A DNA stretch of 47,813 bases. Origin: Pseudomonadota bacterium. Lineage in GTDB: Bacteria; Pseudomonadota; Gammaproteobacteria; Acidiferrobacterales; Acidiferrobacteraceae. The first letter of the stretch is position 1, and each line of letters opens with the position of its first letter. Below the pieces are notes generated by a model. The model did not search any database. It saw only the letters and a list, made by a program, of their open reading frames with translations, and was not told where the DNA came from. Below, piece by piece: positions 11,143 to 28,036 of this stretch. Both the position numbers and the translations under genes were made by a program. The stretch covers positions 1 to 47,813 of the forward strand of contig JAJYDN010000017.1 in the NCBI GenBank assembly GCA_021777535.1, in the 5' to 3' direction.

Positions 11143-13023
11143 TCAGGAAGCAGGTGACAGCGCGAGCAGAAGCTCATTCAAGCGCCGCACATAGCCGGCA
11201 CCGTCCTCGAGCATGCCGCCTTCGGCCAGCAACGCCTGATCGAACATGAGTCGTGACCAGTCCTCAAAATGCCGCCCATCCGCTTCCGCGGCAAGGCGCC
11301 GGATCAGCGGATGCGTGGCATTGATTTCCAGCACGGGCTTGGCCGCAGGCGCCTTTTGTCCGGCCGCCTTCAGCAGCCGTTCCATATGCATGCCGAGATC
11401 GTGCTCGCCCGCCACGAGGCAGGCCGGTGAATCGGTAAGACGGGCACTGACGCGCACCTCCTTCACCCGGTCACCCAGCGCTTTGGCCATGCGCGCCGTG
11501 AGCGCCTTCACCTCCGGCTCCTCCGGCGGTGCCGCCGGCTCCTCGATCTCGCTGCCCACGCCCTTCAGGTCGAGATCGCCCTTGGCCACCGAACGCAGGG
11601 GCTTGCCGTCGAATTCCGTCAGGTGCGTCATGACCCATTCGTCGATACGGTCGGTAAGCAGCAGTACTTCGATGCCCCGCTTGCGAAACACCTCGAGATG
11701 GGGACTATTGCGGGCGGCGCTTGGCGACTCGGCGGTCAGGTAGTAGATTTCCTTCTGGCCGGACACCATGCGCGCGACATATTGAGCGAGCCCGACCTTG
11801 GGTTCGTCGCTCGCCGTCGAAGACCAACGCATGAGCCTGGCTAGCCGTTCGCGATTGGTATGGTCTTCGATGATGCCCTCCTTCAGCACAGTCCCGAACT
11901 CCGCCCAGAACTCCTGGTACTTGTCCTTCTCGGACGCACTGTCCGCCAGTTCAGCAAGCAGATCGAGGACACGGCGCGTCGCGCCGCCACGAATGGCGTC
12001 GATATCGCGGTTGTTTTGCAGAATCTCGCGGGAAACATTGAGCGGCAGATCGGCCGCGTCGATGACTCCCCGCACAAAACGAAGATAAGCCGGCATGAGC
12101 TGCTCGGCGTCGTCCATGATGAAAACGCGCCGCACGTAGAGCTTGATACCGTAACGCCGATCGCGCTCGTAGAGATCAAAAGGCGCATGGCGCGGGATGT
12201 ACAGCAAGGCGATATATTCCTGCTTGCCCTCCACCCGGCTGTGGATGTGCGCAAGCGGCGCCTCGTAATCATGTGTCGTCTGCTTGTAGAATTCGTCGTA
12301 CTCGAGCTCTGTTATCTCGTTACGCGGGCGCGCCCAAAGCGCCGATGCCTTGTTGACCGTCTCCTCGCCGCTGCCGTCCTCCTTGTGCATCAGGATCGGC
12401 CAGGCGATATGATCCGAATATTTGTGGATGACCGACCGCACACGGAAGGGGTCGAGAAATTCATCCTCCCCGGCGCGCATATGGAGAGTCACGCTCGTGC
12501 CGCGTCCGGGGCAATCCGCATATTCGATCGTGTACTCCCCTTCACCGTTCGACTCCCAGACGACACCTTCGCCAACCGGCGCTCCTACATGCCGCGTACG
12601 CAGTGTCACGCGATCGGCCACCATGAACGCCGAGTAGAAACCGACCCCAAACTGGCCGATCAATCGCGCATCTTTGGCCTCGTCGCCGGTCATGCGCTCG
12701 AAAAACCGCCGCGTACCCGAATGGGCGATGGTACCTATGTTGGTGATGACCTCGTCGCGCGTCATGCCAACACCGTTGTCCGAGACCGTGAGCGTCCGCG
12801 CCTCGCGGTCGATGGCGACCCGAATGGCCAGATTCGAATCACCCTCGTAGAGCGCATCATTCTTCAACGCCTCGAAACGCAGCTTGTCGGCGGCATCCGA
12901 GGCGTTGGAGATCAATTCGCGCAGAAAGATTTCCTTCTCGCTGTAGAGGGAGTGAATCATCAGATTGAGGAGCTGGCGCACCTCGGTCTGAAAGCCCATG
13001 GTCTGTTTCTCGGCAGCGGTCAT
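11143..13023 (-). CDS. htpG: Molecular chaperone HtpG (Hsp90 family)
   Basis: HtpG is the cytosolic bacterial Hsp90, an ATP-driven dimeric chaperone. The 626-residue length is typical (E. coli 624). The N-terminal GHKL ATPase motifs are complete: the ATP/Mg-binding helix ELISNASDAADKLR, then VSDNGVGMT, IGTIAHSGT and FGVGFYSAFMVAD. The middle domain (LYIPRHAPFDLYERDRR and NVSREILQ) and the C-terminal dimerisation domain are also present. I kept ATG 13023 because the family has about 10-15 residues before GFQ(T/S)EV. It precedes purC on the same strand; a functional link between the two is not expected. Confidence 0.97.
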   Translation of the reverse strand: MTAAEKQTMGFQTEVRQLLNLMIHSLYSEKEIFLRELISNASDAADKLRFEALKNDALYEGDSNLAIRVAIDREARTLTVSDNGVGMTRDEVITNIGTIAHSGTRRFFERMTGDEAKDARLIGQFGVGFYSAFMVADRVTLRTRHVGAPVGEGVVWESNGEGEYTIEYADCPGRGTSVTLHMRAGEDEFLDPFRVRSVIHKYSDHIAWPILMHKEDGSGEETVNKASALWARPRNEITELEYDEFYKQTTHDYEAPLAHIHSRVEGKQEYIALLYIPRHAPFDLYERDRRYGIKLYVRRVFIMDDAEQLMPAYLRFVRGVIDAADLPLNVSREILQNNRDIDAIRGGATRRVLDLLAELADSASEKDKYQEFWAEFGTVLKEGIIEDHTNRERLARLMRWSSTASDEPKVGLAQYVARMVSGQKEIYYLTAESPSAARNSPHLEVFRKRGIEVLLLTDRIDEWVMTHLTEFDGKPLRSVAKGDLDLKGVGSEIEEPAAPPEEPEVKALTARMAKALGDRVKEVRVSARLTDSPACLVAGEHDLGMHMERLLKAAGQKAPAAKPVLEINATHPLIRRLAAEADGRHFEDWSRLMFDQALLAEGGMLEDGAGYVRRLNELLLALSPAS

Positions 13024-13115
13024 AGCGGCACAGAATCCTCGTCGTGAAATCCGGATAGATGGGAAGAACGGCCTAGCGAAAGCCGACCGCTACATGGGGA
13101 CCGCACCGCGGATTT

Positions 13116-15740
13116 TCAAGCCCGGCGCAGGTAGGCCTCGGCTTCGGGCACGCCAAGCGGGTCCGAAACATAGCGGCCCTGGGCAATATCACAACCCGCC
13201 GCCCGCAGAAACTCGTACTGGGCCGCGCTGTCTACACCCGCGCCGATGACAAGCAGCCTCAGGCTGTGTCCGAGCGCAATGATGGCACGGACGATGGCCT
13301 CGTTGTCCTCGTCGCCGGGGATCCCCTGGACAAAGGACCGGTCGATCTTGAGCGCGTCGATCGGCAGCTGCCTCAGAAAACCAAGCGACGGCAAGTCGGC
13401 ACCGAAATCGTCGACCGTAAGGCCCACACCGATGTCCCTCATTGCCCTGAGAACCGCAAGGGTTTCCGCTGGCCGCCGGGCCAGCGCCCTCTCCGCCACC
13501 TCGATTACGAGATCGGCCGGCGCAAGTTCGCTGTTTTCCAGCGCCTGCCGCACGAGGGCCGGCGTTTCCTCATGCAGGCACTGGCGCGCCGTCATGTTTA
13601 GGGCCATGGGCACCCGTCCCACGCCCCGGTCCCGCCAGGCTCGCTTGACGTCACAAGCCATTCTCAGCATCGAGGCGCCAAGCGGCAAGATGAGCCCACA
13701 ATCCTCTGCCACGGTAATGAACTGGCTGCTTGGCATCACGCCCTCCGTGGGATGGTGCCATTGAAGAAGCACCTCGAATCCGGCGACGGTGCCTGCCTGC
13801 AGCGACACCTGGGGCTCAAAGAGCAAATCGAATTCGCCGTGCTCGAGCGCGCGGCGCAGGTGGCCCTCGAGACTCAAAAGATAAGTGCTATGCTCGCTCA
13901 TCGCCGCCCGGAAAAAGCGGTGGGTGTTTTTCCCGGCCGCCTTCGCCTCGTACATGGCTATGTCGGCTGCGCGTACAAGCCCTTCCGCGTCTTGCGCATC
14001 GGCGGGATAAAGGGCGATTCCAATGCTGCCGCCAAGGAAGATCTCCTCCGGCTCCGTAAGCGCAGGCTCGGCAAACGCGTCGGCGAGCTTGCGCACGATC
14101 CGCGCCACCTCATCGGGCTCCTTGACGTTGGGCAGGATCACACCGAATTCGTCACCACCGAGGCGTGCGAGAAGATCGGTCGAGCGCAGCACATCGGCGA
14201 GCTTGCGGCCGATATTGGCGAGCGCCGTATCGCCGGCGCCGTGACCGAGCGTATCGTTGACCCGCTTAAAACCATCCAGATCGATGAGCAGCAATGCAAG
14301 CGGCCGGCTGCGGGCGTCGGCCTCGCCGATCACGGCATGCAGACGGGCATTGAACAGCGCGCGATTGGGCAGGCCGGTGAGCGGATCGTGGGACGCCTGA
14401 TGGGCAAGGCGCGCCGCCAGCATGCGTTTTTCGCTCACGTCATGAAACACCATGACGATGCCGGTGATGCTGCCGTCGTGCGCACGCATGGGAGCCGCCG
14501 TGCGCTCCACCGCCAGAGCGCGCCCGTCCCGGTGCAGCAGCAAGCCATCCTCGGGTCCGATCGCCTGGCGGCGGAGACAAACCGGAATCGGATCCAGTAA
14601 ATCCCCGTTTTTCTCGTCGAGACACGGAAACACTTCATTCAGGGGCCGCCCCGCGACCTCCTCGAGCGTCCACCCGGTCATGCGCTCCGCAGTCGGATTC
14701 AGATACTGGATGTATCCCTTCGTATCGGCAGCGACGACCGCGTCCAGAATCGACCGCAACGTCACTTCGATGCGTTCCTTGGCCGCGAAGAGTTTGCTCT
14801 CTCCTTCGTGCCGCTCCTTTTCCCATGCCCGCTGGCGGGACAAGGCCCAGCGGTAGATGCCATAGGCGGCACCCAATACCGCGAGCAGCACCAAAAGAGA
14901 CGCGCGCACGAGCCGCCACCAGGCCCAGACGACGGTGGTTTCGGGTATGGAGGCATACGCGACCAGCGGATAACCCTTGACGGGATCAAACGCCCCGAGC
15001 CGGTACTGGTGACCGACGTGAAGGAGTCCCGCATAATCCCCGTGCCCGGCATCACTGCGCCCCAGAATGGGCGAGCGCAGGCCAGACAGTGGCTGCCGGT
15101 AATGCACTGGCACGAGCGGCCAACTGTTTTCCAGATAGTCGCCCTTGCGCAAAAGATCGATCGAGAGACCCGCGGGCATGATGAGCTGGCCCCACACCCG
15201 GCGCTGATTGCGCGGGGTCAAGAGGGCCAGGATGGTGAACGGATGTTCCCCGCCCACGGCGGTGCAGACCGGGATATAACGCCGGCCGCCGGGACGGATC
15301 CGCTCCGGCATGCCGATGCCGAAGCCTCTGCAACGGGCATCCATCATATGCCGCCAAGGGATCGTGGACGTGCGCAGACCGCGCGAGAACGACAGCCATG
15401 CCGGACCCCGCGCACCCAGAACCGCGATCGCCTTCAGGGCCGGATAGGCGGCACCGAACCGGGCCAGCACATTGGCCGCGTCACGCGGCTGCCTGAATGG
15501 ATGCACGCGGCCGAGATCGGCCGCAAGAAAATGCAGACCCGTCCGATAGTGATCGAAATAGAGGTGGGAAGTCGCCGCAACGAAGCTTGCGAGGCGCTCA
15601 AGCCGCTGCTGGCGTCCGTATTGCTCGAGATTCAGGGTATACAGTCCATAGACCGTCAGCATGACGGTGAGCAGGGTCGCCGTAACGACGAATGCAGTGC
15701 GAATTTCCGAACCAGCCTCCCGGGAACGGCCTGGCCCCAT
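13116..15740 (-). CDS. Membrane-bound PAS-GGDEF-EAL protein with degenerate EAL (probable diguanylate cyclase)
   Basis: An 874-residue cyclic-di-GMP signalling protein. Order of parts: an N-terminal membrane helix (about residues 14-36), a periplasmic sensor region of about 230 residues, a second helix (about 272-298), a PAS domain (about 320-440), GGDEF (about 450-610) and EAL (about 625-870). The active site GGDEF (528-532) is intact, with the entry motif DPLTGLPNRALF. The EAL domain has drifted. The signature Glu-Ala-Leu is EVL at 656-658, and the metal-ligand Glu of the usual AEGVE is Ala834 (GAGVD), although Asp777-Asp778 of DDFG remain. I infer cyclic-di-GMP synthesis, with the EAL acting as a binding or regulatory module. 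Start ATG 15740 is chosen because GGAGGA lies 3 nt upstream; an in-frame GTG at 15773 lacks a good site. Confidence 0.9.
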   Translation of the reverse strand: MGPGRSREAGSEIRTAFVVTATLLTVMLTVYGLYTLNLEQYGRQQRLERLASFVAATSHLYFDHYRTGLHFLAADLGRVHPFRQPRDAANVLARFGAAYPALKAIAVLGARGPAWLSFSRGLRTSTIPWRHMMDARCRGFGIGMPERIRPGGRRYIPVCTAVGGEHPFTILALLTPRNQRRVWGQLIMPAGLSIDLLRKGDYLENSWPLVPVHYRQPLSGLRSPILGRSDAGHGDYAGLLHVGHQYRLGAFDPVKGYPLVAYASIPETTVVWAWWRLVRASLLVLLAVLGAAYGIYRWALSRQRAWEKERHEGESKLFAAKERIEVTLRSILDAVVAADTKGYIQYLNPTAERMTGWTLEEVAGRPLNEVFPCLDEKNGDLLDPIPVCLRRQAIGPEDGLLLHRDGRALAVERTAAPMRAHDGSITGIVMVFHDVSEKRMLAARLAHQASHDPLTGLPNRALFNARLHAVIGEADARSRPLALLLIDLDGFKRVNDTLGHGAGDTALANIGRKLADVLRSTDLLARLGGDEFGVILPNVKEPDEVARIVRKLADAFAEPALTEPEEIFLGGSIGIALYPADAQDAEGLVRAADIAMYEAKAAGKNTHRFFRAAMSEHSTYLLSLEGHLRRALEHGEFDLLFEPQVSLQAGTVAGFEVLLQWHHPTEGVMPSSQFITVAEDCGLILPLGASMLRMACDVKRAWRDRGVGRVPMALNMTARQCLHEETPALVRQALENSELAPADLVIEVAERALARRPAETLAVLRAMRDIGVGLTVDDFGADLPSLGFLRQLPIDALKIDRSFVQGIPGDEDNEAIVRAIIALGHSLRLLVIGAGVDSAAQYEFLRAAGCDIAQGRYVSDPLGVPEAEAYLRRA

Positions 15741-15884
15741 GAATCCTCCGCGCGCCACCGCTCTCCGCAGCACCGCCTACCATGCCCCGCGTGGTACGCC
15801 GCACCCGCGCGGGAAGCCATTTTTTTGTTTTTTTCCGCAGACGGCACCCGGCCGCGCCACCCCGCGCTCCGCGCCTCCGTGGCA

Positions 15885-15906
15885 GGCTTATGCATGCGCA
15901 TAAGCC
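15885..15906. promoter_or_regulatory. Perfect 9-bp inverted repeat in the divergent promoter region
   Basis: Arms GGCTTATGC and GCATAAGCC are separated by ATGC. The element is AT-richer than its surroundings and lies about 145 nt upstream of the GGDEF/EAL start and 218 nt upstream of TauE. No T-run follows on either strand, so an operator is more likely than a terminator. The cognate regulator is unknown. Confidence 0.45.
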
Positions 15907-16012
15907 GCTCCCCCTGGGTTGCCCCATAAGGGTTTTCTTTCCTGTAGTATAGCGGAGCCTGCATCGCCCGCACGAGTGATGGGGCCGCTGCTCGGTACGC
16001 CAGCCTTCCGCG

Positions 16013-16035
16013 GTCTGCACCAATATGGTGCAGAC
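16013..16035. promoter_or_regulatory. NtrC-type palindrome
   Basis: Arms GTCTGCACC and GGTGCAGAC flank AATAT. The core TGCACCA-N3-TGGTGCA matches the enterobacterial NtrC (GlnG) binding pattern as I know it, TGCACC-N5-GGTGCA. It lies about 90 nt upstream of the TauE/SafE start and about 60 nt beyond the possible minus-strand -10 box. I found no clear sigma54 promoter (GG-N10-GC) on either side, so the regulator assignment is only a motif match. Confidence 0.5.
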
Positions 16036-16123
16036 GGACCGGGGCGATGGCATCACGGATCACAACACCCTGCCTGCATGGCGGAGGGCCACCAAAAAGT
16101 CCTCCGGGGGACCCTATAGAAAT

Positions 16124-16876
16124 ATGCAACTGACGATCACCGATCTTCTCCAGCATCCCGCGGTACTCATCGCCGCCGAATTCGCGGTACTGGCCGCCTT
16201 TTACGTGCGCGCGACCATCGGTTTCGGGTCGGGACTCATTTCGGTAGCGCTCCTGTCGCTCATGTTCCCTGTCAAAGAGGTGGTGCCCGTCGTCCTGCTG
16301 CTCGATCTCGTCGGCTCCGTCCTGCTCGGGGCCTACGACTTTCATGAAATGCAGTGGCGTGAACTATCGTGGCTGATACCAGGCAGCATCATCGGCCTGG
16401 CACTCGGCGCCTTTGCCCTCGCGGACACGGACGCCCAGAGCCTGATGCGTTTCCTCGGGGTCTTTATCCTCGCCTACGTCCTCTATGCGGTCACCGCCAG
16501 ACCCGAACGCATGCCGCAGATTTCCCGTGGCTGGGCATTGCCCCTCGGCACCCTGGGAGGGCTGATCGGAAGCCTCTACGGGGGCGGCGGACCACCCCTC
16601 GTTGCCTACCTGCAGATGCGCCACCTCGATAAACGCGCCTTCCGCGCGACCTTCCAGGCCATCGCCCTGTCCGACAACGTCCTGCGTGGGGGTCTGTACG
16701 TTGGCCTTGGTCTGCTCAATTTGCCGCTCACTGTCGCCTTCGCGGCACTCAGCGTAGCGGCCGCCATCGGTTTGTACCTCGGCAATCATTTGCACATGCG
16801 CATAAGCCAGCGCGCGTTCATGCGCGGCACACTCCTGCTCCTGACGATTGTCGGCCTGAAATACCTTGTCTTCTGA
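16124..16876 (+). CDS. TauE/SafE-family membrane permease (putative sulfite/organosulfonate or other anion exporter)
   Basis: A 250-residue polytopic membrane protein with about eight predicted helices in two repeats of the family. The N-terminal half has the typical ATIGFGSGLISVALLS and the second half GGLIGSLYGGGGPPLVAYL, both glycine-rich segments characteristic of TauE/SafE (formerly DUF81). Family members export or import sulfite, sulfoacetate, taurine-linked anions and others; the substrate cannot be read from sequence. In a presumed sulfur oxidiser sulfite export would fit, but that is inference. The frame is open upstream to 16025, but ATG 16124 (MQLTITDLL) gives a normal hydrophobic start. 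It is alone on its strand, with an NtrC-like palindrome upstream. Confidence 0.85.
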   Translation: MQLTITDLLQHPAVLIAAEFAVLAAFYVRATIGFGSGLISVALLSLMFPVKEVVPVVLLLDLVGSVLLGAYDFHEMQWRELSWLIPGSIIGLALGAFALADTDAQSLMRFLGVFILAYVLYAVTARPERMPQISRGWALPLGTLGGLIGSLYGGGGPPLVAYLQMRHLDKRAFRATFQAIALSDNVLRGGLYVGLGLLNLPLTVAFAALSVAAAIGLYLGNHLHMRISQRAFMRGTLLLLTIVGLKYLVF

Positions 16877-16921
16877 ACGGACAGGCCAGAACGGCCGCGC
16901 CGCGCCGCCCCGGCCTTGCGC

Positions 16922-17419
16922 CTAGCTTGCGAAATGATACGTCACACCACCCAGCAGTTCGCTGCCGTTGACGAGGGGGCCGGTGTGCGTCGCGGGTCCA
17001 AAAATGAGGTCATATTCCGCGCGCAGACTGAGGCGTGGCATGAATCGGTAACTGACGCCGGCTCCGATCATCGGCCGGGTCGATGAACTCGTGTATCCGT
17101 TGCGCACACTATGGATGTAGGCGATGCCGCCGCGGGCCAGAAACCGCATGTTGCGGACATTCGGGATGGCATGCCGGTAGATGGCCGTGGCCGTAAAAAG
17201 CCCTTCCCGCGCCGGATTCAGGCTCAGAAACTGATAACTCAGTTCGCCGCCCACCGGGAAGCCCCGCGCGGAGCCGCCGAGATAGACGCCGAGGGGCGCG
17301 GTCTGCGACAGCGCGCCGCCCGCCACACCCAACTCGGCACCACCCCAGATGCCGGCGATACCCGCCACGGGCCACAACAGCGAAACCGCAAGACCAGCAA
17401 CGGCCGTATATCTTCTCAT
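16922..17419 (-). CDS. Small outer-membrane beta-barrel protein of unknown role
   Basis: A 165-residue protein with a signal peptide (MRRYTAVAGLAVSLLWPVAGIAG, cleavage near residue 22). Alternating hydrophobic segments follow (GAELGVAGGAL, GELSYQFLSL, TATAIYRHAI, IGAGVSYRFM, LSLRAEYDLIFG). It ends in a beta-strand with a near-terminal aromatic residue (LLGGVTYHFAS), the usual signal for outer-membrane insertion. This is the pattern of an eight-stranded OmpA/OmpW-like barrel. I do not recognise a specific family. ATG 17419 is preferred to 17443 because AGGAGG lies 5 nt upstream and gives a standard signal peptide. It converges with the TauE gene across 45 nt of GC-rich sequence. Confidence 0.75.
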   Translation of the reverse strand: MRRYTAVAGLAVSLLWPVAGIAGIWGGAELGVAGGALSQTAPLGVYLGGSARGFPVGGELSYQFLSLNPAREGLFTATAIYRHAIPNVRNMRFLARGGIAYIHSVRNGYTSSSTRPMIGAGVSYRFMPRLSLRAEYDLIFGPATHTGPLVNGSELLGGVTYHFAS

Positions 17420-17604
17420 GACTGCCTCCTTGATAAATTGCATTTGTCATGCGCCGAGAGCACCCTTGCCGCACTTTTTCCTGGCTTGTGCATCGCCATT
17501 CGGGCGCTCTCGCCATCCGTGGACATCCGCTCGTTTGACCGCATCCGCACCAGACAGTTGCGGCGTAACGGCACGCTCATCATTTTGTTGTACACTGGGT
17601 GTCC

Positions 17605-18882
17605 ATGAGTGCACGCAAACCCTTCATACCGGACACAGGTTGCGAAGCCACCCCGCCCGCCCGTAGCGTCTCACAGCGGCTTGCGGCCGGCGTCCGCCGA
17701 CAGTTATATCGCCTCGTGGCCACGGGCGGCGGGATTGGTGCCCCGCTCCGCTACCTGAAGAGCGTCGCCGATCTCGGCCAGCTGCACCTGAAGTCACGGC
17801 ACATGAAGCTCAAGGTGCACATGCTCGGGCGGCGCTACCTCGCCCTGCGCGCCGAATGTGAACAGCTCGAGCGCATGCAAGCCGGACATCCCGTCGAACA
17901 GCCGCCAGCGACACCTGCCGCCATCGCGGCAAGCCGGCACGGACCCATCTGGCTCCATGGATCCTGGCGGACCGGATCGACCTACGTCTGGCACAAATTC
18001 CGCGCCGATCCGCGGTATCTTGCTTATTACGAACCGTTTCATGAACGGCTCGAGCAGATGTCCATCAAGGATGCCGAGACCGCACGGCACGACTCGTGGA
18101 ACTCCCATCACCCCAATATCGGGGCACCCTATTTCGAGGAATACAAGGGATTCATAGAGGGGGCCGGCGTGGCGGGCTTTGCGCCGGCCTTCTCGTACCG
18201 CAACTTCTTTGTCAACGAAGATCCCCTGCGCGATCAGCGCGCCTATCTGGACGCATTGATCGGCTGGGCCGACAGGCAGGGCCGCCGCCCGGTATTCGGG
18301 TTCTGCCGGTCCTGGGGCCGCGCCGCGTGGTTCCGGCGCCATGCCGCACCCGGCGTGCACATCGCGCTTACCCGCGACCCCTTGAGTCTCTGGCGCTCCG
18401 TCCTGCAGCGGCATGAACGCTATGGCGATACCTATTTTCTGATCATGCCGCTCGTCACGCTCATGCTTAGCCGGCGCGAGCCCTGGCTCGCGCGTTATCT
18501 CCGCGCGTTGCATCTTGACGAGATCGAGCCTGCGGTCGATTTCGGCTGCGCCCAACGCACCGCACAGAGCCTCCTGAAGACCGATCCGCCACGCATCATG
18601 CACGCATTTGCCGCGGCCCAGGGCCTCGGCATGACCATCGCCCTGCGCCATGCGGACCTGATCGTGCCGATCGAGGATCTGGCGTGCGCGATGCGGCGGC
18701 GCACCCTGCATGACACCCTCCGTGGCCGCTACGATATCGATCTCGACTGGAGTGATTGCCAGATTCCCGTCACCGAACCGCGTACCGAGGATCGGGCGTT
18801 TCTCGGTGCCTGGACACAGGCCCGGACCGAGGCTGAGAAGGTCCTCGACTCCCATCCGTTTCTCGCATCTCCAGCAGCATGA
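17605..18882 (+). CDS. Sulfotransferase-like protein
   Basis: A 425-residue protein with the two PAPS-binding hallmarks of sulfotransferases. These are the 5'-phosphosulfate loop GSWRTGSTYVWHKF (about residues 119-132) and the 3'-phosphate motif LTRDPLSLWRSV around Arg257, with the conserved Ser retained. Such enzymes move sulfate from PAPS onto a hydroxyl or amine of a sugar, lipid or protein. The first 110 residues are basic with a short coiled-coil-like stretch (YLALRAECEQLERM) and have no family I recognise. The acceptor is unknown. A heptosyltransferase-like gene follows 134 nt downstream, which makes a surface glycan a possible target (inference). GTG 17599 is an alternative start two codons earlier; neither has a strong ribosome binding site. 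Confidence 0.7.
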   Translation: MSARKPFIPDTGCEATPPARSVSQRLAAGVRRQLYRLVATGGGIGAPLRYLKSVADLGQLHLKSRHMKLKVHMLGRRYLALRAECEQLERMQAGHPVEQPPATPAAIAASRHGPIWLHGSWRTGSTYVWHKFRADPRYLAYYEPFHERLEQMSIKDAETARHDSWNSHHPNIGAPYFEEYKGFIEGAGVAGFAPAFSYRNFFVNEDPLRDQRAYLDALIGWADRQGRRPVFGFCRSWGRAAWFRRHAAPGVHIALTRDPLSLWRSVLQRHERYGDTYFLIMPLVTLMLSRREPWLARYLRALHLDEIEPAVDFGCAQRTAQSLLKTDPPRIMHAFAAAQGLGMTIALRHADLIVPIEDLACAMRRRTLHDTLRGRYDIDLDWSDCQIPVTEPRTEDRAFLGAWTQARTEAEKVLDSHPFLASPAA

Positions 18883-19016
18883 GAACCGGTCGATTGCGTT
18901 GCGGCACCACAGGGCCACTGATAGGATGGTTTTGCGTTCGCTGAATCGCCCCGGAAATCGCAGGCAACCTTCATGGGGCGCGCCTGCCCTTGCCGCACAG
19001 ACAGGGAAATATCACG

Positions 19017-20138
19017 ATGACAGATCTCCGTACCTCGACACCGGCAAACCTCCGGCGGGTACTCATTATCATGCCGCAGCTTCTCGGCGATCTGGTCCTT
19101 GCGACATCCCTCTTCACCGCCCTCAAGGCGCGCGTACCGCAGTGTACGATCGATGTCCTGACCTATGAGCGCAACGCGTCGATTCTCGACGGGCACCCAC
19201 ATATCGGCCGGATCTTCGTCATCGGGGGCGACTGGCGGCGCAAGGGGCTCTTGCGCACCCTGGGACCGCGGCTGAAGCTCCTGCACACCCTGCGCGAACA
19301 CCCCTACGATCTCCTCATCCAGTCGCCACACACGACCGACGGGTCGTGGGGTCCTGCGCTGATCGTCTTGCTTGGGGTCCCGCAGGCCGTGGGTGCCCAC
19401 GCCTCCACGCACGGTTCACCGATGAAGCGCCTGTTCTGGAAGCATACTTTTACGCACATGCTCCCGCGGCCGCATCCCGGGCAGGGGTCCCGCCACACGG
19501 CCGAACTCCATCTCGATCTGTTGCGCCGCATGGGCATTCATCCAGATCCCGGCAATCGCGGCGCTTCCATCATCCCGAATGCAGCTGCAGAGCTACGGGT
19601 CCGCCAGCTCCTGCAAGACCGCGCACTGCAAGCCAAGGGTTTTCTCCTCTTCGCCCCGACCGCCGGCGCGAGCGGCCGGTTCCTGAACCGGCCCATGGCG
19701 CGCACGCTGATAAGCGGGCTCGCAGAGCGCGGCGAACGCGTGGTGGTTACAGCTGCCCCCACGCCGCCGGAACTGGAGTACGTGGGCGAAGTCACGCATG
19801 ATCTGCCGGGCGTCCATAACCTCGCCGGCGCCTTATCCCTGCAGGAACTGGCGGCACTCGCACAACACGCCGAATGCTTCATCGGCACCGATTCCGGCGC
19901 CATGCATATCGCTGCGGCCATGGGCGCCCCCGTCATCGCCTGTTTCGGCCCCGGTGACGAAACCATCTTTGGCCCCTGGCACACGCAGGCGCGTGTCGTC
20001 GCCATGCCCTGGCCCTGCCGTCCCTGCGACACGAATGGATGCGGCGGCGGGGGGATCGCCGAATGCATGACCGCACTTTCCGCCGATGCTGTCCTCTCGG
20101 CCCTGTCCGACATCCGCCGCCATAAACCGGTTGCCTGA
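19017..20138 (+). CDS. Glycosyltransferase family 9 protein (lipopolysaccharide heptosyltransferase-like)
   Basis: A 373-residue GT-B glycosyltransferase. The N-terminal half opens with RRVLIIMPQLLGDLVLATSL, the usual GT9 start (cf. IgDhvla/t). The donor-binding half has the strongest signature, GTDSGAMHIAAAMGAPVIACFGP near residues 290-312. The C-terminal cysteine cluster CRPCDTNGC...C resembles that of RfaQ/WaaQ-type heptosyltransferases. It would add ADP-heptose or a similar sugar to the LPS core at the inner membrane face. Start ATG 19017 follows AGGGA by about 9 nt. It lies downstream of a sulfotransferase-like gene on the same strand and converges with a GGDEF/EAL gene. The exact acceptor is not predictable. 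Confidence 0.88.
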   Translation: MTDLRTSTPANLRRVLIIMPQLLGDLVLATSLFTALKARVPQCTIDVLTYERNASILDGHPHIGRIFVIGGDWRRKGLLRTLGPRLKLLHTLREHPYDLLIQSPHTTDGSWGPALIVLLGVPQAVGAHASTHGSPMKRLFWKHTFTHMLPRPHPGQGSRHTAELHLDLLRRMGIHPDPGNRGASIIPNAAAELRVRQLLQDRALQAKGFLLFAPTAGASGRFLNRPMARTLISGLAERGERVVVTAAPTPPELEYVGEVTHDLPGVHNLAGALSLQELAALAQHAECFIGTDSGAMHIAAAMGAPVIACFGPGDETIFGPWHTQARVVAMPWPCRPCDTNGCGGGGIAECMTALSADAVLSALSDIRRHKPVA

Positions 20139-20191
20139 TCCGGGATATGATCGCCCCCCCGAACGGGCCGCCCAGGTCCCCCGGGTACCCC

Positions 20192-21976
20192 TCAAGACCC
20201 CGGCCCGAACTTTGCCATCAGTTCCGCCTCAGGCATCGCTTTGGCGAACAGATAACCCTGTGCCTTGCGGCAGCCGCTCGCCACGAGAAACGCGCGCTGC
20301 GCATCCAGCTCGACCCCCTCGGCAATAACATCAATGCCAAACGCGCGCGCGGCGCTTATGATGCTGCCGACGAGGACCCGGTCCGCCTCGGACGTCATGA
20401 GTTCGCCCACGAAACTGCGATCGATCTTGATGTGATCGATCGGCAACAGCCTCAGATGCTGCAAAGATGCGTACCCGGTGCCAAAGTCGTCCAGTACCAC
20501 CGATACGCCGATTTCCTTGCAATCACGAATAAGACGCGAGGCCGCCTCCGCGTCGCGGATCGCACTCCATTCCACAAGCTCGAGGCAGAGACTCGAGGAC
20601 TCGACATGCGCATGCTGGGTCAAGATCTGCTCGAGAAGATCCGTAAACCGCGGATTCGCCACCGACGACAGCGTCAAATTGACGTGCAATGTCCAGTCCA
20701 GACCCCTTGCGTGCCAGTCCGCCAGTACCCCGACGGCCCGCTCCAACACCCAGCGATCGAGCTTGGCGCTGTTATGGCTGTGCTCCAGAGCGGCCATGAA
20801 CGAGGCCGGGGCAAGCAGACCCTGCGTGGGATGATCCCAGCGTAAGAGGGCCTCCACGGAAACCATCTCACCCGTTTCCATGTCCACTATCGGCTGAAAG
20901 AAAAGGCGCATCTCGCCCTCGTCGATGCCGCGGGCGAATTCCCACACGATAGCGTCGTGCCGCAGACTTTCATGCACAAAATCGTCCGCGTAGCACAACA
21001 GCATGCCACCGCCGCGGCGGCGCGCCTCACGCATGGCCGTGTCGGCGTGATGCAAAAGTTCCCGCGCGTCACCGCTGTCCAGCGGATAGACCGTCATGCC
21101 GACACTTGCGCTCACGTTCACGCTGCCGCCGCCTGACCCCCACGCGAATTGCAGGCTGTCCCGGACACGCAAAGCCACCATCTCGATATAGCTCATGCAG
21201 GCGACGTTCTCGATGACGAGGGCGAATTCGTCATCGCCAATGCGCGCCACCGTGTCGCTTCTGCGCAATATCGCGGCAATACGCTTCCTGGCCTCGATCA
21301 GCACTGCATCACCTGCTACCGATCCCAAACGGCCGTTCAAGGCTTTGAAATTGTCTATATCTATCGCCAGAATCGCGATCAGGCGGCTCTCCCTCTCCGC
21401 CACCGCCATCGCATGTTCAAGACGGTCGAAAAAAAGCGCGCGGTTGGGTGCCGCGGTAAGCGAATCGTGGGTCGTGGCCACCCTGAGCTCGCGCTCCATG
21501 CGTGCGCGGCGCAAGGCCGCCCCGATGAAATCGGCCATTACCTCGAGCAGATAAAGATGCGCGGCGCCCGGCAGATCAGGCTGCACCGAACACCAGCTGA
21601 CGGCCAGTACCGCCATGACCTTCCCTTCGCTGCGCACCGGCACACAAAGGCATGCGCCAAGCCCCATGGCGACGCATTCCGGCATGGCTTGCGGGCTATC
21701 CGGATAATCGGGGACGAAAAGAGGCGCATTCGCGCGCAACGCCGCGCCCGCCGCCCCTTTTTCGTCGCTGAAGGTGCGACCAGCCAGATGTTCGCGGTCG
21801 AATGGCAGACCGTAGAGAAACTCGTAGCGAAGCCGGTTCGGTGCTTCGCGCATCATGAGTGCCGCGCCATCGGCACCGAGAAGCGCCGCCATCCCGATCG
21901 CCGCCCGCCGAAACACCCCCCCCACATCGGGCTCGCACGCCAAACCGTGCAAGAGTGCGAGCTCGCCCGGGGGCAT
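20192..21976 (-). CDS. GAF-GGDEF-EAL protein with degenerate GGDEF (probable c-di-GMP phosphodiesterase)
   Basis: A 594-residue soluble protein: GAF sensor domain (about residues 15-155), GGDEF (about 165-330) and EAL (about 340-590). The cyclase site reads GDDEF (247-251), and the entry motif is DSLTAAPNR, not the usual DxLTGLPNR, so cyclase activity is doubtful. The EAL domain looks complete: EALLRW from Glu375, DDFGTGYASL, KIDRSF, and AEGVE with both acids. I infer c-di-GMP hydrolysis to pGpG, perhaps controlled by the GAF domain and by GTP binding at the GGDEF relic. ATG 21976 (AGGGGGGG about 6 nt upstream) is preferred to GTG 22006. It mirrors the defect pattern of the other GGDEF/EAL gene about 4.5 kb away. 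Confidence 0.9.
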   Translation of the reverse strand: MPPGELALLHGLACEPDVGGVFRRAAIGMAALLGADGAALMMREAPNRLRYEFLYGLPFDREHLAGRTFSDEKGAAGAALRANAPLFVPDYPDSPQAMPECVAMGLGACLCVPVRSEGKVMAVLAVSWCSVQPDLPGAAHLYLLEVMADFIGAALRRARMERELRVATTHDSLTAAPNRALFFDRLEHAMAVAERESRLIAILAIDIDNFKALNGRLGSVAGDAVLIEARKRIAAILRRSDTVARIGDDEFALVIENVACMSYIEMVALRVRDSLQFAWGSGGGSVNVSASVGMTVYPLDSGDARELLHHADTAMREARRRGGGMLLCYADDFVHESLRHDAIVWEFARGIDEGEMRLFFQPIVDMETGEMVSVEALLRWDHPTQGLLAPASFMAALEHSHNSAKLDRWVLERAVGVLADWHARGLDWTLHVNLTLSSVANPRFTDLLEQILTQHAHVESSSLCLELVEWSAIRDAEAASRLIRDCKEIGVSVVLDDFGTGYASLQHLRLLPIDHIKIDRSFVGELMTSEADRVLVGSIISAARAFGIDVIAEGVELDAQRAFLVASGCRKAQGYLFAKAMPEAELMAKFGPGS

Positions 21977-22180: not shown

Positions 22181-25100
22181 TCAGGGCCGACGTCGCAGCG
22201 AGAAGCCCTCCACCATCAGATAGAACGCAGGCGTCACATACAGGGTCAGAAACTGTGAAAAAACGAGACCGCCCAGAACGGCCACGCCAAGCGGCACACG
22301 CGCCTGGGCGCCCGCCCCAAAACCTATCGCGATCGGCAAAACACCAAGGATTGCCGCGAAGGTCGTCATCATGATGGGACGGTACCGGATCGCGCAGGCC
22401 TCGATAATGGCTTCGCGCGGAGGCACTCCCTCCCGGCGCCGGGCAAGCGCGAAATCGACCAGAATGATGCCGTTTTTCTTGACAAGACCCAGCAACATGA
22501 TGATGCCGATGAAACTATAGAGATCGAGAGGGAGCCCCGTGACATAGAGGGACGCAAGGGCCCCAAAAGCCGCAAGCGGCAACGCCGTCAGAATCGTCAG
22601 GGGGTGAATGAAGTGTTCGTATAATACCGCGAGGACCACGTAAATGAGGAGAACCGTCGCCAGAAGAAGAAATGGCAGGGCGCGGAATGATGAACGGAAG
22701 AGGGCCGCATTACCGCCAAAACGCCCCGTGACACCGGCCGGCAACACCTTCGCCGCCGTAGCCTGCACGCGCCCCACCGCCTGCCCCAGCGTCACACCCG
22801 GCATCAGATCGAACGATATGGTGGTAGACGGCAGACCCCCGTGCTGATCGAGCTCCAGAGGGCCCGCCGAGTAGCGCTCGCGCGTTACAGCCGCAAGCGG
22901 CACCAATGCCCCATTGAGCGCCGGCACCGTCAGGGCCGCCAGTGCAGCCAGGTTGTCCTGATAGCGAGGGGACAACTCCATCAGCACTTCATATTGGTCC
23001 GCCGCGCCATAGATCGTTCCCACCTGGCTGCCGCCAAACGCAAGACCCAAAGTCTTCTCGACCGCCTCCGGAGTCACGCCGAGCGCCGCCGCCCGCGCCC
23101 GCTCGATCTCCACGGAGACCTCGGGATTGCGGCTTTCGAGACTGTTGTTTACGGACACCAGTTGCGGCAGCTTGCGCAGCGCGTTCGTCAGCCGCCCGGT
23201 GGCCGCATCAAGCTGCCTCCAGCTCTCCCCGACGAGTTCGTAGGCATAGTCACCATCTATGTTGGCAGTCCCCGCCTGCGCCCCCTGCGCTCCCTGAAAA
23301 ACGATCTGCGCATTATAGAAACGCCGCGTTGCCCGCCTGAGCGCCGCACTGAGCGCCGCGGCATGCTGCGCATAATCGGACCGGATACGCACGAGGCAAT
23401 GCCCCGTGTTGGCCGAGGCGAACGCCCCCGGCCCCTGACCGACCGACGACACCACGGACAGCACATGCGGATTGGCCCGGAAGGCCGCGACAATCTCCTG
23501 CTGTTCCGTGGCGACCCGCGGGAAACTCAAGCCCGGCGGATACTCGATGTTGACGTTGATGACGCCCGCGTCCTCGTTCGGCAGAAACGCCTTGTGAACC
23601 AGCATGCCAAGACCCAGACTGCCAATGAGCGTAAGCCCCGCAAGGCCAACGACGAGACCCCGCCGCCGCAATGCCGCCTCGAGCGAGCGGACGTAGATCC
23701 CCTGGCTGCGCGCGAACGCCCGCTGAAAGCGCCCCTCCTGCTCAACCCCCGCGCGCAGAAACCGGCTCGACAGCATTGGTGTGACGGTAAGCGCCACCAG
23801 ACCGGAGACCAGGATAACGACCGCTATGGTGACCCCGAAGGCTGCAAACAGATGGCCGACGAATCCACCGAGAAGAACGAGGGGCAAAAAGATGATCGCG
23901 AGCGAAATCGTCATCGACAGCACGGTAAAGCCGATCTCCTGGCTCCCGCGCAGCGCCGCTGTCATCGCGCTCTCTCCGCGCTCCAGATGCCGGTTGATGT
24001 TCTCAAGCATCACCACTGCATCGTCGACCACAAAACCGACGGCCAGAGTGAGCGCAAGCAGCGTCAGCGTATTGAGGCTGTAGCCAAGCATCATCATGAC
24101 GATGAACGTACCGGCAAGCGACAGCGGGATCGCCAGGGCGCCGATCAGGGTCGATGACCGGCGCCGCAGGAAGACCCACATGACCGCCGCCACCAGCACA
24201 CTCGCAAGCGCCAAGGTAAAAAACACCTCATGGGCTGCGGCATTGATGTAGGTGGCATCGTTAAAGACAACGTGCAGCGCCGCGCCACCGGGAGCCGCCC
24301 GCTTCAGGATGGGAATCAGCGATTTGATGCCGCGGGCGATCGATACCGTATTGCTGCCTGCCTCGCGGACCACGGCCAGGACGATGCCGGGCTGCGCGTT
24401 GATCCAGGTCTTCTGCAGATTGTATTGCGTACTGTTGCGCGCGTGGCCGATCGCGCTCAGCGGTACCGGGTTCCCGTCCTCATAGGCGAGTATCAGGTGA
24501 TTGAAGGCCGCTGCCGTGTGCAGCTGCCCATGCACGTCGGCCTCCAGATTCCGATCGGTGCCCTCGATCGTGCCCTGCGGCAGATTGACGTTCGCCGCTC
24601 CGAGCGCCGTCTCGACGGCCTCCAGACTAAGTCCGCGCGCAGAGAGCGCGAACGGGTTCACATAGATGCGCACCGCATAAGTCTTGGCACCAAAAACCTC
24701 GACATTCGCCACACCAGGAACGGTCGCAAGCGACGTCGCCACCTGCGTCTGTGCGTAGCGATCCAGCTGATAGAGCGGCATGTTCGGCGCCGACAGACTG
24801 AGATACATGATCGGCTGCGACGCCGGGTTGAGATTCTTCACAAGCGGCGGATTGGGCATGCCAGGCGGCAGAAAGTGCTGCGCCTGCGCCACTGCGTCGG
24901 AGACCTGCTGAACCGCAGCCGTCGCTGACGTGCTGAGCGAAAATTGCAGGATGATGCGCGTCGAACCGTTTTGGCTGACCGCACTCATCGACATAAGGCC
25001 CGGTACGCTCGAAAACTGCCTCTCGAGCGGCGTCGCGACGGCGCTCGACATGGTTTCAGGGCTTGCGCCCGGAAGGCCCACTGTCACGAGGACCGTGGGG

Positions 25101-25225
25101 AAACTCACATTGGGCAGCAGGGCCATCGGTAACCGGAAATAGGCGAGCAAACCGAGCAGGGCGAGCGCCACCGCCAGCACCGTGGTGGCAACGGGGCGCC
25201 GGATAAACGGTGCCGACAGGTTCAT
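22181..25225 (-). CDS. RND multidrug efflux transporter, inner-membrane permease
   Basis: A 1014-residue proton-driven pump of the hydrophobe/amphiphile efflux (HAE) class, closest in look to MdtB/MdtC-type proteins. The N-terminus MNLSAPFIRRPVATTVL is classical. The proton-relay aspartates are present in GFVVDDAVVMLENI (helix 4), and the matching lysine in GLVKKNGIILVDFA (helix 10). The two large periplasmic loops and the closing helices (FSQFLTLYVTPAFYL) are intact. Substrates cannot be predicted. It is the last gene of a translationally coupled set with the adaptor (4-nt overlap) and an outer-membrane channel, forming a complete tripartite pump. Confidence 0.93.
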   Translation of the reverse strand: MNLSAPFIRRPVATTVLAVALALLGLLAYFRLPMALLPNVSFPTVLVTVGLPGASPETMSSAVATPLERQFSSVPGLMSMSAVSQNGSTRIILQFSLSTSATAAVQQVSDAVAQAQHFLPPGMPNPPLVKNLNPASQPIMYLSLSAPNMPLYQLDRYAQTQVATSLATVPGVANVEVFGAKTYAVRIYVNPFALSARGLSLEAVETALGAANVNLPQGTIEGTDRNLEADVHGQLHTAAAFNHLILAYEDGNPVPLSAIGHARNSTQYNLQKTWINAQPGIVLAVVREAGSNTVSIARGIKSLIPILKRAAPGGAALHVVFNDATYINAAAHEVFFTLALASVLVAAVMWVFLRRRSSTLIGALAIPLSLAGTFIVMMMLGYSLNTLTLLALTLAVGFVVDDAVVMLENINRHLERGESAMTAALRGSQEIGFTVLSMTISLAIIFLPLVLLGGFVGHLFAAFGVTIAVVILVSGLVALTVTPMLSSRFLRAGVEQEGRFQRAFARSQGIYVRSLEAALRRRGLVVGLAGLTLIGSLGLGMLVHKAFLPNEDAGVINVNIEYPPGLSFPRVATEQQEIVAAFRANPHVLSVVSSVGQGPGAFASANTGHCLVRIRSDYAQHAAALSAALRRATRRFYNAQIVFQGAQGAQAGTANIDGDYAYELVGESWRQLDAATGRLTNALRKLPQLVSVNNSLESRNPEVSVEIERARAAALGVTPEAVEKTLGLAFGGSQVGTIYGAADQYEVLMELSPRYQDNLAALAALTVPALNGALVPLAAVTRERYSAGPLELDQHGGLPSTTISFDLMPGVTLGQAVGRVQATAAKVLPAGVTGRFGGNAALFRSSFRALPFLLLATVLLIYVVLAVLYEHFIHPLTILTALPLAAFGALASLYVTGLPLDLYSFIGIIMLLGLVKKNGIILVDFALARRREGVPPREAIIEACAIRYRPIMMTTFAAILGVLPIAIGFGAGAQARVPLGVAVLGGLVFSQFLTLYVTPAFYLMVEGFSLRRRP

Positions 25226-26319
25226 CCGCCCGTGCCTTCCCGTACAACTACCGCCGCGCCCGGATGCAGCCGCGTTGGCGGATCAATGATGACCTGGGTA
25301 CCGGCAGCAATTCCGCCAAGAGCGACACGCTTGCGGTCTTCTCCCTTGAAGACAACCGTCTGCATGACCGCCTTGTGCTTGCGTATGACGTAGACGAAGG
25401 GGCCCGCCTCTCCCTGCTGCAAGGCACCTCGCGGCACCAGCAACGCGTGACGCAGCTTCCGGTAGGTAAATACGACTTGCAGGTACTCGTTCGGCCACAG
25501 TGCGTCATGCCGGTTGGCAAGTACCGCACGCGCCGTCACGGTCGCCGATACGTTATCGACGCTGTTGCCGATGGCAACGACCGGTCCTCTGCCCAACCGC
25601 ACACTGCCATCGTCGCTCCACACCGCAACAAGCGGGTGGCGGCTGGCAAGTCCCGCCCGCAAGGTGCCGAGATACCGTTCTGGCAGACTGAACTGCACAT
25701 CCATCGGACGGATCGCGTTCACGGTCGTCAGCACTGTGCTGTTGGCGGTCACCAGATTGCCCGTCTTGATGGTCAGCAAGCCAGCATGGCCCCCGATCGG
25801 CGCCCGGATGGTCGTGTCCGCCAGCACGAGCTCGGCATCGCGCAGCGCCGCCCGGTCGGCCGCCACGGCGGCACGGGCGCTCTGCGCCTGCTCCTGCGCC
25901 TGCTGAAACGTCTGCAGCGTCACATAGTCCTTGCGCACAAGCGGTGTGTACGCCTTCACCTGGGCCATGTCGTATTTCTCCTGGGCGATGGATCCCGCCA
26001 GATTGGCCCGCGCCTGCCAGACCTGCGCCTGAGCGGGCCGGGGATCGATCTGATACAGCAATTGCCCGGCGCGCACCTTTTCTCCCGAATGGATGGCGAC
26101 CTCGTCCAGGACGCCGGTCACCTGCGGCACGATCGTGACGCTCTGCGAGGCCACCGCCTGCCCGAGGGTGCGCACGGTGAGATCAAGCCGTCCTGCCCGC
26201 ACCGCCACCGCCTGCACGGAGAGAGGCGGTGTCTTCACGGGCCGCCTGCTCTGGCAGCCGCCAAGCAGCAGCACGAGCGCTACCGCCCCCCACCCCCATC
26301 CGGTCAACACCTTTTTCAC
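25222..26319 (-). CDS. RND efflux periplasmic adaptor (membrane fusion lipoprotein)
   Basis: A 365-residue HlyD/AcrA-family adaptor that bridges the permease and the outer-membrane channel in the periplasm. The N-terminus has a lipoprotein signal with lipobox LLGGC (Cys22). The lipoyl-like half-motifs flank a helical hairpin (GEKVRAGQLLYQIDP and later ADTTIRAPIGGHAGLLTIKTGNLV). A beta-barrel domain follows (MDVQFSLPERYL). The stop codon overlaps the permease start by 4 nt (ATGA), and its own start overlaps the channel gene, so the three are made in balanced amounts. Confidence 0.93.
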   Translation of the reverse strand: MKKVLTGWGWGAVALVLLLGGCQSRRPVKTPPLSVQAVAVRAGRLDLTVRTLGQAVASQSVTIVPQVTGVLDEVAIHSGEKVRAGQLLYQIDPRPAQAQVWQARANLAGSIAQEKYDMAQVKAYTPLVRKDYVTLQTFQQAQEQAQSARAAVAADRAALRDAELVLADTTIRAPIGGHAGLLTIKTGNLVTANSTVLTTVNAIRPMDVQFSLPERYLGTLRAGLASRHPLVAVWSDDGSVRLGRGPVVAIGNSVDNVSATVTARAVLANRHDALWPNEYLQVVFTYRKLRHALLVPRGALQQGEAGPFVYVIRKHKAVMQTVVFKGEDRKRVALGGIAAGTQVIIDPPTRLHPGAAVVVREGTGG

Positions 26320-27761
26320 AATCCCCCCTTTGAATCCGCCTGCGCAGGCAATCCGATATAACCGAGCGCATCGGCGAGATCGGCAAGCTGCACATAGGCT
26401 GTCGTGACATCCTGAATGGCGGTCTGTTTGGCCGTTGTGAGCGCGGCCTGCGCCGCGAGGACATCCAGCATCGTCGCAAGACCGACCTTGTACTGGGCCT
26501 TAATGGCCGTCAGGGACGCGCGCGCACTCGCCACCGCAAGCTGCGCTGCGCCCGCCGCCGACCGTGCACCCAAAACCGTCTCATAGTCCTGGTAGACCGT
26601 CATGTCGATCTTCTGCGTTTGCGCGTCGAGCGATGCCTCGGCGCTGCGCACGTTCGCACGGGCCTCTCCGATCTGATAGGCATTCTTGAAGCCGCTAAAA
26701 AGCGGTACGTGCAGGTCGACACTGACCGACCAGTTCTGGGAGGGACCAAGCGTCTGCTGGAAACGCTTGCCCGCGGTTCCTGCCACATCGATGCTTGGCC
26801 ACCCGGCCGCTTCATCGGCACGAACCGTGGCCCGGTTGGCGAGGACTTGCGCGGCGGCCGCCAAAATGCCGGGATTACTCTGCTGCGCGCGCCGGATGAG
26901 GGCGCGCAGCGACGGGGCCACCACAGGCGGCAACCGCCCGACGTCGAGCGGCATGACCGGCATAGCTTGGTCGGCCGGCAGTCCGCATGCCTCCGCGAGC
27001 CCGCCCATATCGGCGCGCGTCTGTGCCTGCGTGGCGATCCATTCCGACCGGGCCTGCGCAAGCGCCGCGCGGGCCTGCAGCACGTCGCTTATGGTGGCCA
27101 GGCCAGATTCCTGCTTGATCCGCGCCGCGTCCAGGCTGGCACGATCCTCGCGAACCGTCTGCCGGTAGGCGTGCACCAGCGCCTGTTCGCCGATCAGCTG
27201 GTAATAATTCTGCGTAACAGAAAGCGCCACCGACTGCAGCGCGCCATTGTTGTCGAAACCTGCCAGATAAATCCGGGCCAGCGCCTCCTCGCGCTGGGCG
27301 GCGCGCGCGCCAAAATCCAGGAGAACGTAATTCAGCGACAGCGCGGCCGAGTTGACGTTCTGAATGGGGATCGAAAAACCTGTGGTCGTATTCGCTTCCG
27401 TGCGGCTTGCCGTATCGTCAAAACTGAGCGTCGGAAAGAATGCCGAATCGGCCACACCGAGGCCATCTGCCGCCGCCTGCAGGTTCGCAAAGGCCACACG
27501 CGTGTCCGGGTTGTGGGCGAGTGCGAAGGCCGTGAGCGCAGCAAGGCCCATCGGTTGTGCAAACACCCTGCGCGGTGGCGCCTTGGCTCTGGGCAGGCCC
27601 GACGGATGCCGGTTCCAGACCTGTCCGGCACCGCGCACGGCCAGATCCTGCGTAAAAAGCGGATCCCGCCAGAGGCCCTGCAAAAGCCCTGCTTCCCCGG
27701 CGCGCGGGATCAGGCAGCACAGCCAGGCGGCCGCCAGCAGAGCCCGCCCGCCACTTTTCAC
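26316..27761 (-). CDS. TolC-family outer-membrane efflux channel
   Basis: An outer-membrane factor of about 481 residues, first gene of the efflux operon. It shows the internal duplication of the family, with long helices and the repeated strand pattern (AALSLNYVLLDFGAR in the first half, VSVDLHVPLFSGFKN in the second). I place the start at GTG 27761, which gives a normal signal peptide (KSGGRALLAAAWLCC, then ending at GEA). An in-frame GTG at 27809 would add 16 residues before it. No typical lipobox is evident. It overlaps the adaptor gene by 4 nt. The 227-275 nt upstream hold a 6-bp inverted repeat (CGGTCC at 27947, GGACCG at 27960) but no clear promoter. Confidence 0.9.
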   Translation of the reverse strand: MKSGGRALLAAAWLCCLIPRAGEAGLLQGLWRDPLFTQDLAVRGAGQVWNRHPSGLPRAKAPPRRVFAQPMGLAALTAFALAHNPDTRVAFANLQAAADGLGVADSAFFPTLSFDDTASRTEANTTTGFSIPIQNVNSAALSLNYVLLDFGARAAQREEALARIYLAGFDNNGALQSVALSVTQNYYQLIGEQALVHAYRQTVREDRASLDAARIKQESGLATISDVLQARAALAQARSEWIATQAQTRADMGGLAEACGLPADQAMPVMPLDVGRLPPVVAPSLRALIRRAQQSNPGILAAAAQVLANRATVRADEAAGWPSIDVAGTAGKRFQQTLGPSQNWSVSVDLHVPLFSGFKNAYQIGEARANVRSAEASLDAQTQKIDMTVYQDYETVLGARSAAGAAQLAVASARASLTAIKAQYKVGLATMLDVLAAQAALTTAKQTAIQDVTTAYVQLADLADALGYIGLPAQADSKGGL

Positions 27762-28036
27762 GCCCACCTGCGCCACTCCACTGTCCCCGACCCTCCAGCC
27801 GCCCGTCACCCGGGCATGCCCCCTGCCCTGCCCGCCCGTGACGCGGGATAGAGACCATGACAGCCCATCCGGCGAGCGATCTTAGCAGGAAAGACTGCGC
27901 GCCGCGGTAAGGAATTGTCTCCTGCTGCATTGACGCGGCGATGACACGGTCCTTTGTCCGGACCGGCGCCGCATCCATCGCAGCCCCATGGCCGCCGCCC
28001 GGCTCACGGACTGGTGTGCGTCTGGCCAGGGGACCG

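Follow-up and report, generated by a model that had tools for sequence, protein, structure and literature searches.

According to the excerpts of the papers cited here, PAS-GGDEF-EAL proteins usually keep one activity while the other domain is degenerate (PMC6510439). The dead EAL domain of Escherichia coli DgcE is inhibitory (PMC6510439), and two-hybrid contacts between DgcE and PdeR are described (PMC5635695). The GEDEF variant of CC3396 binds GTP (PMC4823724). ExLxR is named as the motif through which dead EAL domains bind c-di-GMP, and lineage-specific degeneration of the GGDEF domain is reported for ZMO1055 (PMC10333796). Glu475 of the EVL motif in FimX has been proposed as the general base (PMC3527489).

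Motif reading is the usual route to assigning cyclase or phosphodiesterase activity. Here it is applied to two GGDEF-EAL hybrids, proteins A and B, encoded in a stretch of 47,813 nucleotides (the window) from a member of the Acidiferrobacteraceae. A first-pass annotation had described them as complementary half-dead proteins that form a dedicated synthase and hydrolase. Comparisons cover 18 genomes of the family in three genera: g1, which includes the window, its sister genus g2, and g3. Motifs, conservation, domain folds, gene order and selection were computed; all activities, ligands and contacts we infer. The preferred reading, at a probability of about 0.65, is that A is a periplasm-sensing cyclase of the DgcE type and B a phosphodiesterase of the CC3396/PdeR type, with a common c-di-GMP pool.

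Domain architecture and motif changes of A and B

The features of the locus are as follows.

13116..15740, minus strand: protein A, TM-dCache-TM-PAS-GGDEF-EAL with a degenerate EAL (ORF and Pfam; the ORF is extensible to 15773)
14910..15641, minus strand: predicted periplasmic dCache sensor of A (range aligned to 3lif_A; AlphaFold, mean pLDDT 78.9; Foldseek and VIA)
14436..14774, minus strand: PAS domain of A (Pfam PF00989)
13926..14396, minus strand: GGDEF domain of A, with an intact GGDEF at 14145-14159 and an RxxD I-site
13158..13862, minus strand: degenerate EAL domain of A, with EVL at 13767-13775 and GAGVD for AEGVE at 13230-13244
13091..13120, minus strand: sigma32-type htpG promoter, CTTGAAA-N14-CCCCATGTA, whose -35 element holds the A stop codon TGA at 13116-13118
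11143..13023, minus strand: downstream neighbour of A, which we take to be htpG (Hsp90)
20192..21976, minus strand: protein B, GAF-GGDEF-EAL with a variant GGDEF (ORF and Pfam; the ORF is extensible to 22006)
21512..21916, minus strand: GAF domain of B (Pfam PF01590)
21008..21472, minus strand: GGDEF domain of B, with GDDEF at 21224-21238
20240..20935, minus strand: EAL domain of B, with the full catalytic set (Pfam and alignment)

The likely start of A, read from the sequence, is the ATG at 15740, which has GGAGG ahead of it (the ORF list gives 15773). Pfam scores its PAS, GGDEF and EAL domains at 55, 165 and 207 bits. Hydrophobic segments at approximately residues 24-47 and 281-311 enclose a periplasmic part, and the AlphaFold model of this part has the two stacked PAS-like modules and the long N-terminal helix of dCache domains. 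The best structural match found with Foldseek and VIA is 3lif_A (Z 19.4, 225 residues, rmsd 3.2). The amino-acid chemoreceptors PctA and Mlp24 match the model at Z 16-18, and the 50 structural matches listed, at Z 15-19, are mostly of the dCache type. A dCache sensor fold is supported by the model, in agreement with the extracytoplasmic sensing that had been attributed to A. This genome also encodes a GGDEF-only protein, L070 (G000:C6:11000-14000), whose periplasmic part is related to the A sensor and scores 115 bits against the A profile.

Seven positions are catalytic in EAL domains, namely E, N, E, DD (counted as one), K, the glutamate of AEGVE, and Q. In the window species A retains six of the seven positions treated as catalytic (E667, N726, E758, DD, K809 and Q865), and residual weak hydrolysis of c-di-GMP is therefore possible there, to judge by its motifs. 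Alignment confirms that A retains GGDEF and has EVL for EAL and GAGVD for AEGVE. It adds changes that had been missed: ExLxR reads ExLxQ, the loop after DDFG is altered (GADLP), and R stands in place of the aromatic residue after the conserved QG.

A is present in 16 of the 18 family genomes (three of g1 and 13 of g2). All 16 orthologues carry the diguanylate cyclase signature, an intact GGDEF with the RxxD I-site, and all have lost both the AEGVE glutamate (replaced by Ala, Gly or Ser) and the aromatic after QG. DDFG is retained in the three g1 orthologues and reads QNFG in the 13 of g2, so the complete catalytic set is absent throughout, with the glutamate replaced in 16/16 and DD in 13/16; the Asn of the set is retained in 15 of the 16. 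EVL is found only in g1, with EVF in two g2 orthologues and EAL in the other 11. It also occurs in C74, a paralogue from the same genome in which everything else is intact. EVL is for this reason incidental and weak evidence of damage to the EAL domain of A, and the first-pass annotation was right about its presence but not about its weight. The loss of the AEGVE glutamate in all 16 orthologues indicates a common ancestral defect, with later damage separate in each genus. As read from these alignments, the EAL defect of A is old and stable, and the earlier view of A as a synthase only is in keeping with its motifs. Conspicuous letters such as EVL and GDDEF can inform less than the quieter change of the AEGVE glutamate, fixed across the relatives of A.

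The likely start of B is the ATG at 21976, as had been proposed (the ORF list gives 22006), and its GAF, GGDEF and EAL domains score 48, 127 and 226 bits in Pfam. The GAF domain accords with the cytoplasmic sensing suggested for B, and alignment confirms GDDEF together with a full EAL, DDFG and AEGVE. Two further changes in the GGDEF domain, ND to NG and GHxxGD to GSxxGD, had been overlooked. B orthologues occur in 12 of the 18 family genomes, and the EAL catalytic set (E, N, E, DD, K, E, Q) is full in 11 of the 12, B of the window included, the exception being L042 with DH for DD; a hydrolase role for B is consistent with this. GDDEF is limited to the window species, with GGDEF in G001 and GADEF in G002. 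The signature GG(D/E)EF, missing from B of the window, is present in G001 and in 9/9 g2 orthologues, which also have GHxxGD intact; the His of the latter motif is Ser, Ser and Thr in the three g1 orthologues. The expectation that the defects would be conserved among orthologues therefore holds for the AEGVE glutamate of A but not for the GGDEF of B. By the same comparison the GGDEF defect of B is recent, and some cyclase activity might be left in its GDDEF. Another GAF-GGDEF-EAL protein of this genome, L072 (G000:C42:12600-16500), is placed beside B, with a long branch, in a tree of 58/61 rows and has lost both signatures (GGHEF, EAQ and no DDFG).

Selection was estimated as dN/dS on chosen pairs, nine of the possible A pairs and eight of B, with synonymous sites near saturation in several. 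In A the EAL domain gives values of 0.07-0.27, GGDEF 0.04-0.18 and the sensor 0.18-0.40. EAL exceeds GGDEF in 7/7 g2 pairs, which points to weaker constraint on EAL in g2, and lies below GGDEF in 2/2 g1 pairs. The ratio of EAL to GGDEF distances in A has a median of 1.51 in g2 (range 1.04-3.71, 78 non-independent pairs) and is 1.04, 1.18 and 0.56 in g1. For B it has a median of 1.05 in g2 without L042 (0.78-4.32, 28 pairs) and is 0.77, 0.78 and 0.86 in g1. These values are suggestive of a mild relaxation of the A EAL domain in g2, with ratio ranges that overlap. Purifying selection on this domain means that it is not simply decaying, and it is probably retained for something other than hydrolysis.

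One such use would be that of a c-di-GMP receptor of the FimX/LapD type, with the A EAL domain feeding back on GGDEF or on an effector. That the domain is under purifying selection would fit, as would the EVL motif, also found in FimX (excerpt of PMC3527489), and an ExLxR that is intact in 10 of the 13 g2 orthologues. However, ExLxR, determinative for binding according to the excerpt of PMC10333796, is broken in the other three and reads ExLxQ in 3/3 g1 orthologues; the aromatic lost in all 16 maps to the FimX ligand contact Tyr673; and the GGDEF of A is intact, unlike that of FimX. A receptor role is quite unlikely on this balance.

Neutral drift, under which both proteins are still bifunctional or one is becoming a pseudogene, could explain why the B motif varies among three congeners, why A retains most catalytic positions and why its EAL domain evolves somewhat faster than GGDEF in g2. 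It sits poorly with a loss in A that is fixed in 16/16 orthologues of two genera, with dN/dS values that do not exceed 0.40 in any domain of A or B across the 17 pairs computed, and with the lack of an internal stop in A or B in any orthologue. We regard drift as very improbable.

In the preferred reading A would be a membrane diguanylate cyclase whose periplasmic dCache domain binds a small ligand. PAS would relay the signal to GGDEF, by its motifs a competent and product-inhibited domain, and the dead EAL domain may be kept as a regulatory or dimer-contact part, by analogy with E. coli DgcE. B would be a soluble c-di-GMP phosphodiesterase under the control of its GAF and GGDEF domains. The GGDEF domain, having recently lost the cyclase signature in the window species, may bind GTP as an activator in the manner of CC3396.

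Gene order and the pairing of A with B

Four genes on mixed strands separate A from B. They encode a membrane protein of the TauE type, a small protein that resembles outer-membrane proteins (below the Pfam cut-off), a protein without a Pfam match and a family 9 glycosyltransferase. A 427-aa gene at 17599-18882 (plus strand), sulfotransferase-like by our impression and with no Pfam match at 0.001, accompanies the glycosyltransferase in several relatives. An RND pump cluster lies upstream of B. Its pump, adaptor and outer-membrane genes (22181-27809, minus strand, as is B) occur in 3/3 g1 genomes, the G002 stretch compared ending within the adaptor gene, and found no match in the five g2 B loci compared. 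The genes downstream of A are presumably htpG, purC, tig, clpP and clpX.

The adjacency of A and B is found in all three g1 genomes, where B stands beyond the glycosyltransferase at 4.4 kb from A. In g2 the order A, htpG, purC, tig, clpP, clpX is kept in 7/7 loci compared, and the TauE and outer-membrane genes adjoin A in six of them (the contig of G009 ends at A). The glycosyltransferase and its neighbour are located further out in four of six g2 loci, and no match to them was found in G012 or G013. B is absent from all seven g2 A loci compared, and lies 0.65 Mb from A in G008 and 0.10 Mb in G007. Four of the five g2 B loci compared have B near genes that we take from their translations to be nfeD, an SPFH protein gene and lgt, with no matches to these in G011. 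No B orthologue was detected in the A carriers G003, G005, G010 and G016, of which G003 and G005 are 99% complete.

In the genome of the window, 2.3 Mb in size and 99.6% complete, there are 20 GGDEF and 13 EAL matches; 22 of its proteins were aligned, three without a GGDEF row and nine without an EAL row. Eleven are GGDEF-EAL hybrids, and by motif judgement five of these have one or both domains damaged: EAL in A and C13, GGDEF in B and C11, and both in C42. The other six look intact or close to it. Hybrids with a dead half are therefore nothing unusual in this genome. When the 11 hybrids were placed uniformly in simulation, some two of them fell within the A-B distance in 28% of runs. A scan of genome contigs gave 597 confirmed matches, the best 80 of which are generic GGDEF-EAL proteins, none of them close.

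These data bear on the dedicated local pair of the first-pass annotation, in which A and B would bind one another as a single module for synthesis and breakdown, on the precedent of DgcE and PdeR in E. coli (excerpt of PMC5635695). The defects are complementary, the two genes are neighbours throughout g1, and alteration of the B GGDEF is confined to g1, the genus in which B is near A. Nevertheless, the four mixed-strand genes between them are incompatible with one operon, B goes undetected in four genomes that carry A, the two genes are far apart in G008 and G007, and such proximity arises by chance in 28% of simulations. Conserved proximity and co-occurrence are both wanting, with adjacency in g1 only, A in 16/18 genomes and B in 12/18. 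Gene order and presence or absence across the 18 family genomes argue against an obligate pair. The claim of a dedicated pair is weakened by the proximity restricted to g1, the species-specific GGDEF change of B and the four A carriers lacking a detected B; it is unsupported beyond g1 and, if weakly, possible within it. Overall, we consider a dedicated pair unlikely.

Under the preferred reading A and B would have become neighbours in the ancestor of g1, both acting on the common c-di-GMP pool. Against it stand the possible weak hydrolysis by A, the weaker constraint on the A EAL domain in g2 and the possible cyclase activity of the B GDDEF. The decay of the B GGDEF domain also coincides with the place of B beside A, which a division of labour would predict as well.

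The junction of A and htpG

In 16/16 carriers A immediately precedes htpG, the two sharing a strand, with a gap of 66-92 bp in the 14 that were measured. The junction sequence matches all 16 positions of the sigma32 consensus used (the published form is quoted in PMC4263515) and is the only match of at least 14/16 in the window on both strands. The same site, with the TGA stop of A within TTGA (TTGAWW) and CCCCA 14 bases on, is found in 16/16 A orthologues. It scores 16 in the three of g1 and, among the 13 of g2, 12 in eight and 10-11 in five. Of 1217 TGA triplets in the window, used as a control, four reach 12 and 8% reach 10, so the five scores of 10-11 are insufficient alone. A freer promoter scan has its best placement at the A-htpG junction in 15 of the 16 genomes, and htpG promoters score 13-14/16 in the five genomes examined that lack A alongside. 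G014 is without A, but there the contig stops within htpG, which makes that absence uninformative.

A functional A-htpG operon was considered and rejected, since htpG has its own sigma32-type promoter starting inside the last codons of A. The overlap with this promoter is enough by itself to account for the conserved order, and A may keep its place because it shares DNA with htpG rather than a function. The interval between the two genes has no listed site resembling a terminator, so read-through is possible. Deletion of the P. aeruginosa cyclase PA2072 is accompanied by a value of -2.3 for htpG in a table of transcripts (PMC13380032), and overproduction of FcsR by more HtpG and DnaK (PMC5579053). 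The excerpts of these two papers describe expression changes in another organism and state no linkage of htpG with a cyclase gene.

A reversed relative and comparison with known systems

L017 (G004, L175:9649-12513), a related protein from g3, carries the reverse defect, in that its GGDEF reads SENKF and its EAL is complete. It is not beside htpG. Its sensor matches the A profile, with the sensor of the GGDEF-only protein on C6 matching slightly better. L017 groups with A at 100/97 in a tree of 58/61 rows and at 100/99 in a tree of 16 chosen rows. Because its branch is long it is called a related protein here, not a proven orthologue. The hybrid beside it (L175:14102-15754) has an intact GGDEF and a damaged EAL, with AKHIE for AEGVE. 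Three full-length proteins of family f5 (L196-L198) have a sensor related to that of A and both domains intact; further f5 matches are L199, which is cut, and L200, with both signatures. In the tree of 16 chosen rows the GGDEF-EAL part of L196-L198 falls among intact paralogues, away from A and L017, and hence the tree does not establish these proteins as the ancestral form.

Opposite losses within one family are the simplest reading of L017 and A, given that the branches around them are intact. The reversed defect and its complementary neighbour are one case each and are best treated as a lead. A fuller version would have the dCache-PAS-GGDEF-EAL lineage split in opposite directions from an intact state, with EAL lost in A in two genera and GGDEF lost in L017 in a third. 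In g1 the unrelated hybrid B, now beside A, would be losing its GGDEF signature, with a complementary local module in the making from two once-complete proteins. This we hold to be decidedly unlikely, the more so in view of where L196-L198 group. Should the reciprocal losses prove real, the family would be a natural series from intact hybrid to specialised enzymes.

The preferred reading, in which A and B are half-active enzymes that share a c-di-GMP pool, has close counterparts among described proteins. E. coli DgcE (MASE1-PAS3-GGDEF with a degenerate EAL) resembles A in being membrane-anchored, with PAS, an active-type GGDEF and a C-terminal EAL without catalysis. A has this layout of membrane sensor, PAS, intact GGDEF and degenerate EAL without MASE1; it carries dCache and one PAS where DgcE has MASE1 and three PAS domains, and its EAL keeps more active-site residues. 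FimX and LapD share with A a dead EAL in a GGDEF-EAL protein, and FimX also the EVL, but differ from A in its intact GGDEF and broken ExLxR. Caulobacter CC3396 is similar to B in that the second Gly of GGDEF is replaced by an acid (E in CC3396, D in B) next to a complete EAL. B differs in its N-terminal GAF and in the species-specific nature of the change, and by analogy activation by GTP is possible in B. E. coli PdeR (PAS-degenerate GGDEF-EAL), a partner of DgcE and DgcM, is likewise of the phosphodiesterase type with a degenerate GGDEF, and published work connects it with a cyclase whose EAL is degenerate; B differs in having GAF in place of PAS. The arrangement of A and B is a further example of a common and known half-active type, and is mostly ordinary.
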